A stretch of DNA of 64,000 nt, from contig SXYX01000006.1 in NCBI GenBank assembly GCA_005788175.1, forward strand, positions 1-64,000, read 5' to 3'. Position 1 is the first letter of the stretch; the number at the start of each line of letters is the position of its first letter. The position numbers and the translations under genes are program-made. Source of the DNA: Acidobacteriota bacterium (GTDB lineage: Bacteria; Acidobacteriota; Holophagae; Holophagales; Holophagaceae). Of the stretch, positions 44,125-54,726 are shown one piece after another. A model generated the notes under the pieces. It saw nothing but the letters and a program-made list of their open reading frames with translations. It was not told the origin of the DNA and ran no database searches.

Positions 44125-46257
44125 TTATTTCTGAACCACGGGTAATAAATAACTGCTGATTGATTCATTTGTATGACCATCCACAGTTCTAATAAATAGT
44201 TTGGATGAAAGAGGAATGGATAGTTTTAGTCGTAAAGTAAATTCTTCGGTGGTCTGGTCAAAAATACCGTCATCCGGCAGGATTTGTTGCCAATCTTGGC
44301 CGTTAAAACTTATAAAGCAATGGCTAATAATGGAACGAAGATCTTTAAGAAGAAAGCGAGCCAGTAGGGTCTGCTGGTCAATATTCATGGTAATTTGATC
44401 GACCTTTGGAGCCTCATGGTCAATGGTGAACCGAGAGCTTAAAATTCCATCCTGCTGAGTTGAAGTTATCGTTTTCCATCTATCAAAAGCAGTAACCTGA
44501 AGTTCATAAACCCCTTCCTTATAGGAAGTTGTATCAAAGGCAAAGTGGTATGTATTAAATTGCTCCTCAAGCAAAATCTCATTTCCCTGTTCACCCCGAA
44601 GAGCTATGCGAAATAATCTTTGGTCGGTATTTTCAGTATCTGACTTAAATATAAAACCCTGAATTCCCTTTCGAAAGTTCCTCGATGTATCCCCTTGTTC
44701 TTCATTGTCATCCTCGAGAAAATACAGAATTTCAGATGATTGAGGTGGTGCTGTTAATGTATTAGTATTTTTACTAGATAAATAAATACCCGGAGGTAGA
44801 ACTTCGATGGATTTAACTTGCGAAGTTCGTGCTTGAAGTGCCCAAAAAAACTTCACTTCTTTGACCTCCGGAGTCAACCCATCGACAGTGCTCAGCATTT
44901 TGACTCGAAACTGAGCAAACTTAGCGACAGGAACCCCAGGGCGTTCTCCTGATTTCATCAACGGAGACCATGGCGACCAAGTTACATCAGGCCTACGAGT
45001 TTGACCTGAGCGAAATTGAATAGAGACCGAAGTTCCATTTGGTGTCTTGGATTCTATGTAAGGCCTACCCCAACGGGTCAGGCCCGGTGAAACCAATATT
45101 TCGGATTCCAAGTAACCTTCAGTTGAATTACTATCTGAGAGCGTATAAATTTCACCAGGATTCGATCCAACCACATACATGATTGATCCCTGAGAAATAA
45201 ATGCTGTTGCTTGAGCGCAATTCAGTTCTTGAATGAGCGCAAACGATGGTTTTAAGGTAGGGACTTTTTGGATATCAAAAGAAAATATTCTTGATCGGTC
45301 TCCGGTGCCCAAAAGCAAATGATTTTTCCATAGCGTGAGAGCAAAAGCAAAACTTTGCTGACTCTGCCAAAGAGTCCTAGAAAACTTGGAGTCTAGATCG
45401 TACTCGAATAAAATGCTTTTGGTTTTCAAATCTGATTCGCTTGGAAAATAGATATCCTGGGGAGTCACGGTCGGTATCTCTTTGGAAATATCGGGCAGGA
45501 TAGGTCTTTCAATATTGGCTGATGCAAAGACCCGATCTCCAGAGACCACTATATTTCGAACTTCGTCCATACCGCTATCGAATAGAGTCTCAAGGCGGTC
45601 AGTAGCTCGATTGTATTTGACTACTAATCCGTTTCCATGCGTACCTAATAGGTAACTGCCTCGCGCATCTCTGGCAAAAGACGTGAAAGCAATTTCTTCT
45701 GCCATTTCTGCCAGCACACGGCTTGATCCTTCGCGAGCAGATATAAGAACGGCGCCTCGTTCTCCAGCACCTAAAGCAAGTATTTCTCGATTTTCGGATT
45801 CTAACTGCCAAACGATACGCGCATTGATAGCGGCATAAGTTGAGCTCTCTCCAAGAGAATTGATACGAACCAATCTCCTTTGTCCACTAGGTGCAACGAT
45901 TAAATCCTCTCCTAGTCGAGTCATCGCAAAAACAATTCCACCTTTCATCTGAGCAAAAGGCTTCAACTGACCTCCCGATAGGCGAAAAATTCTTCCATCA
46001 TTTCCAGCAGAAATAAAGCCTCCGTCACGACCATCGGGAAGAAAAGCCCATATGATCCCTTCAGGGACCTGGATAATGCGTCGAGAAGTCGGACCAAGCC
46101 TTAGTATTCCTTCTGCATCAACTTGGAGTCCTTTAAATTCTGAATTCTGCCAATCAATAAACGAATTATAGTTCTTGGTAACTTGTTGACCATTTAATGA
46201 AATAACGGTGAAGAGAAACATAATAATTCGACACTGATGTAAAAAAAGTCTCAACAT
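44125..46257 (-). CDS. Exported beta-propeller protein coupled to the S55 peptidase gene
   Basis: A 710-residue protein with an N-terminal hydrophobic signal (IIMFLFTVISLNG). Residues about 40-370 contain repeated short propeller-like strands (IIWAFLPDGRDGGFISAGND, GRIFRL, SYLLGTHGNGLVVKYN, HLLLGTGDRSRIFSFD). A middle beta-rich region (about 390-480, VSIQFRSGQTRRPDVTWSPW) follows. The C-terminal part ends with a domain holding CFISFNGQDWQQILPDDGIF, like the sugar-binding or Ig-like tails of other exported proteins. There is no enzyme motif that I recognise. The ATG overlaps the S55 stop as TAATG, so the two products are probably made together. Its function is unknown; from memory, similar pairs occur in Acidobacteriota. 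Confidence 0.72.
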   Translation of the reverse strand: MLRLFLHQCRIIMFLFTVISLNGQQVTKNYNSFIDWQNSEFKGLQVDAEGILRLGPTSRRIIQVPEGIIWAFLPDGRDGGFISAGNDGRIFRLSGGQLKPFAQMKGGIVFAMTRLGEDLIVAPSGQRRLVRINSLGESSTYAAINARIVWQLESENREILALGAGERGAVLISAREGSSRVLAEMAEEIAFTSFARDARGSYLLGTHGNGLVVKYNRATDRLETLFDSGMDEVRNIVVSGDRVFASANIERPILPDISKEIPTVTPQDIYFPSESDLKTKSILFEYDLDSKFSRTLWQSQQSFAFALTLWKNHLLLGTGDRSRIFSFDIQKVPTLKPSFALIQELNCAQATAFISQGSIMYVVGSNPGEIYTLSDSNSTEGYLESEILVSPGLTRWGRPYIESKTPNGTSVSIQFRSGQTRRPDVTWSPWSPLMKSGERPGVPVAKFAQFRVKMLSTVDGLTPEVKEVKFFWALQARTSQVKSIEVLPPGIYLSSKNTNTLTAPPQSSEILYFLEDDNEEQGDTSRNFRKGIQGFIFKSDTENTDQRLFRIALRGEQGNEILLEEQFNTYHFAFDTTSYKEGVYELQVTAFDRWKTITSTQQDGILSSRFTIDHEAPKVDQITMNIDQQTLLARFLLKDLRSIISHCFISFNGQDWQQILPDDGIFDQTTEEFTLRLKLSIPLSSKLFIRTVDGHTNESISSYLLPVVQK

Positions 46258-48011
46258 TACTCAACCTCGATTTCGAGGGTAACCAAACCCTGAACTTCGC
46301 GTTCAAGCGGTATCAGAGAGCGTCCAATAATTCTTCGTTTCAGACTACTGTTTTTAGAGCCATCCTCCGGATTTACGAGACTAGCAATAGAGGGAGGGAC
46401 GCCCTCGATTCGATCTCCACGAAGGCCCGCTCCTTTTGAGGATTGAACCAAAAGCCCATAGGCAAGATTGTTTTTTAAAGAGCTGTTAAGAATTTGGACC
46501 ACATCACCCAAACTTCCAATTTGAATAGAGGATTGATCTGGATCTGCCGACATGATGGACAGACCATCTCCAACAAGCAGATAGGTTTTCCCTTTTTGCG
46601 CCGACGTCGGGATAAAGACCGAAAAGTTATATGATTCGCGGAGGCCTTGAATATTCTGAACAGTCAGGGTGACAGGTAAAGATGACCCTCTCTTGGGTCG
46701 AGATGTCAGAATACGAGCAGATACTACTGCGCTCAGATCTAACCGCTCCTCGGCCTTAATCGTTAAAGAAATCCCTTCAAATTTGGGTTTCTCAAAAGGA
46801 TTAAAACAGATGGCCTGAAGAACGCCGCCTAAATAGTCAGAGAGTCTTTTGGAGTTAAGATCAGCAACAAAACTTTCAATCTCAATAGGAGGATAACCTG
46901 CAAGTTTAATATTTCCCTGAAGACTCAAACTTTGCATTCCTAATCCACGAATATTCGATTCTAAAGATTGAGATAAAACAGTAGCGGCAAAATACGGAGT
47001 TAATACAGGATGATCAATCATATTAAAGCTTAAATTTAAATTTTTTCTGCCGCCTAAATTAATTCCCAGCCTCAAAGGGATCATCTTAGATTCGACTCCT
47101 AAAGTTCCGCTTACACCGGAGCTTCGGTCAAGCATCACCGATCCTATGGTTCTCCCTGGAGCGGTCAATTTGAAAGAAGAATTGAGATTGGAAACAACCC
47201 CTAAAACATTGCCAGATCGCATTGGGACCTGAAGCGACCCTAAATTAAAAAGCGGGTGCCCATACATTAATACGCGTTTGCCCCTGATATATGTGATGGT
47301 TCCGGCGCTAGATAAATCAAGATCTCCTTCAACTAGACTAGCTACTACAGTGCCTCCCGGCTCAATAGGGCTAGAGATTTGCTCTTCGTTAGTCATCATG
47401 AATGAATTGTTGGCGTCTAGGAAGCGAACTCCTGAACCTTGCCAAAAAGAGGCTGCATCTGATGATAAAGCCGTGCCAGTGAGTACGAGGCTATACGAAT
47501 CTTTAGAGCCCTCGGGCCAAACTTCACTTAACGGAATCATCGTTCCACTTATTGCAGACTTCAAGACTTTAGGAGGATCCATTTTAGGGAGTATTAATGG
47601 GGTATTCTGAACGGACTCATCTGGAATTTGTAAGAGCTGATCAAGCATGTATTGTATGGGAGTTATGCCGGCTATCGGCTCTTTGGAGAATGTGAAACCT
47701 GTACTTAGGGCACCAATAAGCTTTCCGTTGATGTAACAAGGGCTACCGCTCATTCCTGCGAAAACTCCCATTTCCTTCATTTGGGAGCCGAGCAGCTTGA
47801 TAAGGATCGTTGATCGGCCGGGTGACGTATTCTTTTGGATGCCTAAAACTTCAAAATCAAATTGATCGATTTTAGAGCCCAAAAAAACTGTCTTACCTTG
47901 CCCTCTCATACCCGATCGGATATCCCCTAAAGGCAGGATTTCTTGGGATACTAATAATGAAAAAGCCACAAAAAATAGTGTTAAAACCTTGAAAATATTG
48001 GACTTAGACAT
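46257..48011 (-). CDS. Exported SpoIVB-like (S55) serine peptidase, apparently with permuted order
   Basis: From ATG 48011 a signal sequence (FKVLTLFFVAFSLLVSQ) leads to DIRSGMRGQGKTVFLGSKID, FDFEVLGIQKN and VFAGMSGSPCYINGKLIGAL, whose GMSGSP carries the predicted nucleophile (codon 47748-47750). Further on, AGTITYIRGKRVLMYGHPLF supplies a His (codon 47256-47258), and GRTIGSVMLDRSSGVSGTLG resembles the N-terminal half of the SpoIVB peptidase domain. Thus Ser precedes His, the reverse of SpoIVB. The C-terminal 200 residues are beta-rich with no assignment. At 584 residues it has no recognised PDZ. There are no sporulation genes nearby. It lies divergent from the TonB receptor and is coupled to the propeller gene. 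Confidence 0.8.
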   Translation of the reverse strand: MSKSNIFKVLTLFFVAFSLLVSQEILPLGDIRSGMRGQGKTVFLGSKIDQFDFEVLGIQKNTSPGRSTILIKLLGSQMKEMGVFAGMSGSPCYINGKLIGALSTGFTFSKEPIAGITPIQYMLDQLLQIPDESVQNTPLILPKMDPPKVLKSAISGTMIPLSEVWPEGSKDSYSLVLTGTALSSDAASFWQGSGVRFLDANNSFMMTNEEQISSPIEPGGTVVASLVEGDLDLSSAGTITYIRGKRVLMYGHPLFNLGSLQVPMRSGNVLGVVSNLNSSFKLTAPGRTIGSVMLDRSSGVSGTLGVESKMIPLRLGINLGGRKNLNLSFNMIDHPVLTPYFAATVLSQSLESNIRGLGMQSLSLQGNIKLAGYPPIEIESFVADLNSKRLSDYLGGVLQAICFNPFEKPKFEGISLTIKAEERLDLSAVVSARILTSRPKRGSSLPVTLTVQNIQGLRESYNFSVFIPTSAQKGKTYLLVGDGLSIMSADPDQSSIQIGSLGDVVQILNSSLKNNLAYGLLVQSSKGAGLRGDRIEGVPPSIASLVNPEDGSKNSSLKRRIIGRSLIPLEREVQGLVTLEIEVE

Positions 48012-48180
48012 AATTATAGGTGGCCTATTTGTAGTAATGATAGAGATTTTAATAAGATTGGCTTGGCAACTCCAATAGCATAACTCCACAAATGACTTAT
48101 GCCTAAACAGTACTTAAAAAAACCTAGAATTGTCGACTTTTGAGTGCTTTAGTCTTTAAATAGGTATTAATTAAGTCCCA

Positions 48181-53103: not shown

Positions 53104-54726
<1,623 letters not shown>

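Follow-up and report, generated by a model that had tools for sequence, protein, structure and literature searches.

In the clan PA serine proteases chymotrypsin/trypsin and HtrA/DegP, a His-bearing barrel comes first in the chain and a Ser-bearing barrel second. For SpoIVB (MEROPS S55, PF05580, TIGR02860; structure 9LNF), the closest described relative of the protein considered here, the formerly proposed catalytic acid was Asp363. In the 2025 structure of SpoIVB this residue lies approximately 24 Å from His236, and the third catalytic residue was left open, with Thr393 proposed (PMC12502668). In the sigma-K checkpoint SpoIVB has a site-1-type signalling role: it cleaves a membrane-bound anti-sigma factor or inhibitor before an M50 site-2 protease acts (PMC6581720, PMC12502668). 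S55 proteins have also been reported to be absent from the Acanthopleuribacteraceae and widespread in other acidobacteria, and the passages concerned carry no remark on the order of their halves (PMC8841776). Here we describe a gene in a 64,000-nucleotide stretch of Acidobacteriota DNA (contig SXYX01000006.1, positions 1 to 64,000; hereafter the window) whose product, an S55-like serine protease predicted to be exported, carries these two halves in the reverse order and is encoded together with a secreted beta-propeller protein.

The features of the two genes are collected in Table 1; residue numbers refer to the 610-residue frame of the protease, which extends to a GTG at 48089 (46257-48089), unless the 584-residue product is stated. 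The open reading frame, its coordinates and its motifs were found as the first-pass annotation had given them, with the Ser of GMSGSP at position 88 of 584 and the His 164 residues later within GTITYIRGKRVLMYGHPLF, after which comes GRTIGSVMLDRSSGVSGTLG. In the window protein GMSGSP therefore stands first and GTITY...GHP second, whereas in SpoIVB the PDZ domain is followed by GT.T....GH and then by the GMSGSP half. The latter order holds throughout our SpoIVB set, comprising a viral contig (L074), plasmid records (L077-L079), phage-collection records (L104-L113) and the 9LNF chain. The swap of the Ser and His segments relative to SpoIVB, which the first-pass annotation had proposed, is hence confirmed by sequence, and its caveat that SpoIVB itself might share the order does not apply, the His half being first throughout the set.

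In half-by-half profile comparison (HHalign) each half of the protein paired with its namesake in SpoIVB: the Ser half at 98.9%, E 2.5e-17 (shared elements GMSGSP and GKL.GAV), and the His half at 79.6%, E 1.5e-5, over 74 columns in register when 14 SpoIVB rows are used. In the latter alignment the catalytic His falls on His, Asp321 falls on Asn, and the GTxT, GH and GI.G elements coincide; it scored 34.4, whereas none of 48 controls, made with reversed profiles, partner-gene windows and other regions, exceeded 22.3. The Ser-first order is identical in 127 aligned homologues, and both halves lie on one chain in all of them. MAFFT misplaced a SpoIVB His fragment when this was included in an alignment, and that alignment was not used. 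The homology of each half and the invariance of the residues make a single circularly permuted fold, as proposed at first pass, the best reading of the two halves. A vestigial second start of the Ser half after the His half, such as permutation by duplication could leave behind, was considered and gave one match (3%), which was not significant.

Linear models see only part of this arrangement. The sole Pfam match of the window protein is Peptidase_S55 (PF05580) at residues 69-132, corresponding to positions 129-194 of the 210-position profile, with a score of 30 bits above the curated cut-off of 25; this covers the Ser half only, and a whole-domain match running from His half to Ser half was not obtained. 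The same stretch scores 26.6 bits against TIGR02860, far under the SpoIVB equivalog cut-off of 305.25, and the best match in the PDB is again SpoIVB (9LNF), in the Ser half only (E 5.7e-10). No PDZ domain was recognised by Pfam in the window protein, the linker did not match a profile of the SpoIVB PDZ domain, and among family members a single protein of 48 had a marginal PDZ match (E 0.02). The protein differs from SpoIVB further in its extra C-terminal region, and agrees with the first-pass description of an exported product without an evident PDZ.

All 127 homologues have Ser114, His278 and Asp321, and no His other than His278 is kept in more than 60% of them. The first two are the equivalents of SpoIVB Ser378 and His236, from which Ser-His catalysis is predicted as in SpoIVB. 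Asp321 aligns with a position where 13 of 14 SpoIVB sequences have Asn (Asn290 in B. subtilis, 9LNF numbering), and lies 43 residues past His278, close to the spacing of 45 between His57 and Asp102 in chymotrypsin. We infer Asp321 to be the catalytic acid, and the same alignment puts Asn290 forward as a candidate for the third catalytic residue left open in S55. No conserved residue corresponds to SpoIVB Asp363, the aligned position being Ser, Glu, Lys, Thr or Leu and the next position Gly, and the position of Thr393, 15 residues past the Ser, holds Ala in 73 homologues and Ser in 54. Since neither residue has a fixed counterpart, the permuted family, as aligned, speaks against both as general requirements. 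Trypsin Ser214 stands at the same spacing after Ser195 by sequence order, which by analogy suggests that Thr393 is the equivalent of Ser214 rather than a nucleophile. As a separate observation, the 9LNF construct reads GMAGAP, with Ala at both 378 and 380, though it is described as S378A.

We then consider the distribution of the protease. A single-protein search found homologues in 187 of 199 Acidobacteriota genomes, and a profile search found the permuted form in 369 of 389 near-complete genomes; most of the profile matches listed run nearly the full length of the profile, so the order is common to hundreds of genomes. PF05580 matches 112 of 119 Acidobacteriota genomes, and in all 112 it covers only about profile positions 94-202, never the His half of the model; the phylum thus yielded no copy in the SpoIVB order. 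Judged by these searches, the permuted form is the standard S55-type protein of Acidobacteriota and not an oddity of the window genome. Within the window's own class, the family label f3 has the protease in none of six genomes, which is consistent with the absence of S55 from the Acanthopleuribacteraceae remarked on in the literature (PMC8841776). A plasmid search returned no relative, and a search of viral contigs returned SpoIVB itself only.

The surroundings of the gene also differ from those of SpoIVB in lacking a sporulation context, as had been noted at first pass: Spo0A_C was found in none of 21 relatives' genomes (the B. subtilis control was positive), and the neighbouring genes checked in the window, housekeeping genes and one for a TonB-type receptor, include no spo genes.

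The gene directly downstream encodes a secreted protein with beta-propeller and Ig-like parts. Among its relatives, 19 of 29 match Reg_prop (PF07494) and 11 of 29 match Vgb_lyase (virginiamycin-lyase-like, PF24684), and Ig-like domains are matched as well; unlike proteins of those families, the partner has a module of its own (RSGNT..PD.TWS.WS), an Ig-like tail and no kinase domain. At 59 of 69 loci the protease gene is directly followed by a partner relative in the same orientation, often with overlaps of 1 or 4 bases. When partner presence was probed with its own conserved module (A6), 151 of 153 genomes taken to be protease-bearing had it, including cases with the two genes on different contigs, whereas 19 of 20 protease-less genomes lacked it; in the lone exception (G340) the partner sits at the edge of a contig, whose truncation may have removed the protease. 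The joint presence/absence table (151/2/1/19) gives a Fisher p of 4e-22, a value that ignores the shared ancestry of losses, and the losses are spread over at least six family labels (f1, f3, f10, f39, f52 and f66). Protease and partner are inherited and lost together. As a side observation, the protease has been retained in the genus of the window genome (G000, G182, G307) despite its small genomes, which measure approximately 1.2 Mb at 96-97% completeness, whereas other members of the family have approximately 2-5 Mb; G000 and the related locus L032 carry the partner too.

Our preferred explanation, which we consider probable, is that the window gene encodes an exported clan PA serine protease of the S55 kind whose halves are circularly permuted and which acts with the propeller partner. 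The mature protein would begin with the Ser-bearing barrel, continue through a linker of approximately 90 residues into the His-bearing barrel, and end in an accessory C-terminal region, with no recognisable PDZ. Packing of the halves as in SpoIVB would bring Ser114 to His278, and Asp321 of the His half would act as the acid in ordinary Ser-His-Asp hydrolysis. The propeller/Ig-like protein would most likely serve as an activator, scaffold or substrate-binding subunit, and the predicted proteolytic activity would be that of an envelope processing protease. A bolder version seems to us evenly balanced between true and false: that a natural circular permutation of the clan PA fold was fixed early in Acidobacteriota and kept in approximately 95% of them as one component of an obligate pair of envelope proteins whose other member is the propeller, with Asp321 marking the real third catalytic position of S55 (Asn290 in SpoIVB).

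That the two genes are closely linked and disappear together would also fit a protease that matures its partner, the propeller/Ig-like protein being its main substrate and not its cofactor; linkage cannot tell substrate from cofactor, and we hold this to be possible but the less likely role. More doubtful is a site-1-type signalling role, in which the protease would cut a membrane-bound anti-sigma factor or inhibitor ahead of an M50 site-2 protease and the propeller would be the sensor. SpoIVB itself sets the precedent (PMC6581720, PMC12502668), M50 proteases occur in the window genome and its relatives, and at four loci (L036, L039, L060 and L066) a clustered gene lies convergently downstream of the partner; in L036, the locus tested, this gene encodes a zf-HC2 anti-sigma-type zinc finger. 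However, M50 is near universal, being found in all 14 controls, and no sigma or anti-sigma gene is linked to the pair conservedly across the phylum.

We also performed structure prediction and coupling analysis on the protease. Foldseek of an AlphaFold model built from a four-row alignment matched 9LNF with a probability of 1.00 (2.9 Å over 87 columns), and its other early matches included DegP, Deg1, trypsinogen and viral 3C-like proteases; the Ser-half model thereby matches the Ser-bearing barrel of the chymotrypsin/trypsin and HtrA/DegP proteases. This agrees with a predicted Ser-bearing barrel at the mature N-terminus, the start of the Ser half lying at most 2 residues from it as presumed. 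As a check for the clan PA fold, a pair of six-stranded barrels flanking the active site, the model gave moderate confidence for the Ser half only (shallow alignment).

Several points weigh against the permuted-fold explanation. The single-sequence AlphaFold prediction of the window protease had a pLDDT of 33, and that of the core from the four-row alignment 37, with core residues 1-80 at 50-77. All Foldseek matches had E above 0.05, and one of the four alignment rows was a SpoIVB Ser half. Noise in the mean-field coupling analysis (127 sequences, Neff 105, 370 columns) prevented contact between the halves from being resolved; F110-Y276 ranked among many coupled pairs and was not used as evidence. 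The His-half match, at approximately 80%, is not overwhelming, and it depends on profile depth, being insignificant (7%) with only four SpoIVB rows and found with 14. Asp321 also has a rival as candidate acid in Asp256 (codon 47322-47324, just before the GT.T strand), which is 99% conserved and is common to all 14 SpoIVB sequences (Asp213).

Pairing of the halves in trans, through barrel exchange between two molecules in a domain-swapped dimer, would make the in-chain order of little matter. The sequence is compatible with it, the linker is long and variable, and 9LNF shows an unusual PDZ-protease strand swap (PMC12502668); but both halves always lie on one chain in the aligned homologues and the linker length allows packing in cis, an argument from parsimony only, and we regard the dimer as quite unlikely. 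It is similarly improbable that only the Ser half is S55-related and the GHP segment an unrelated domain alike by chance, the protein using another general base or being no protease, since, although Pfam and hmmsearch detect the Ser half alone and the His-half match fails at shallow depth, the deeper match is in register above all controls and His278 is the only conserved His of the protein.

Returning to the permuted protease, we found no description of such an S55 arrangement in the literature searched, a search outside which most subscription journals fell. Where annotation rests on the half-match, the Acidobacteriota proteins are probably mislabelled as spore protease; filing them under SpoIVB would hide their rearranged, PDZ-less and non-sporulation nature. 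With its invariant Ser-His-Asp set, the permuted family would offer a natural experiment on the S55 mechanism, and the joint loss of protease and propeller defines a genetically testable two-gene envelope system of an understudied phylum.

Table 1 Features of the protease and partner genes in the window (residue numbers of the 610-residue frame, with those of the 584-residue product where given).
Feature	Position	Strand	Remarks
Partner gene, secreted beta-propeller + Ig-like protein, 710 aa	44125..46257	-	ATG overlaps protease stop by 1 base
CDS, permuted S55-like serine protease, 584 aa	46257..48011	-	ATG start at 48011
Predicted signal peptide, residues 1-22	47946..48011	-	By inspection of MSKSNIFKVLTLFFVAFSLLVS
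Ser half, counterpart of SpoIVB C-terminal Ser-bearing barrel	47634..47942	-	Profile matches, model and Foldseek
GMSGSP motif, predicted catalytic Ser114 (610) = Ser88 (584)	47739..47756	-	Ser kept in 127/127
Linker, ~90 residues, Ser-half end to His-half start	47367..47633	-	Variable
His half, counterpart of SpoIVB N-terminal His-bearing barrel	47007..47366	-	Profile comparison
Predicted catalytic His278 (610) = His252 (584), counterpart of SpoIVB His236	47256..47258	-	Invariant
Asp321 (610) = Asp295 (584), proposed triad acid	47127..47129	-	Invariant, 127/127; aligned with SpoIVB Asn290
C-terminal region	46260..47006	-	Conserved across phylum

A side finding concerns spoIVB itself. On four viral contigs we observed 3' halves of spoIVB (L100:3001-3123, L101:3001-3180, L102:3001-3108 and L103:3001-3114) that begin at SGSP (SGAP in L102) and are immediately preceded by unrelated sequence, which places the break in the gene at the catalytic Ser codons. 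This arrangement suggests that phage-like elements integrate within spoIVB of Bacillota, much as skin does in sigK.

Elsewhere in the window, a Cpn60/TCP-1 family protein of 539 aa is encoded at 53104-54723 (-). At three loci without an adjacent partner (L037, L038 and L059), the protease is immediately preceded, in the same orientation, by a clustered gene of approximately 740 aa, which in L037, the locus tested, encodes a Peptidase S46.

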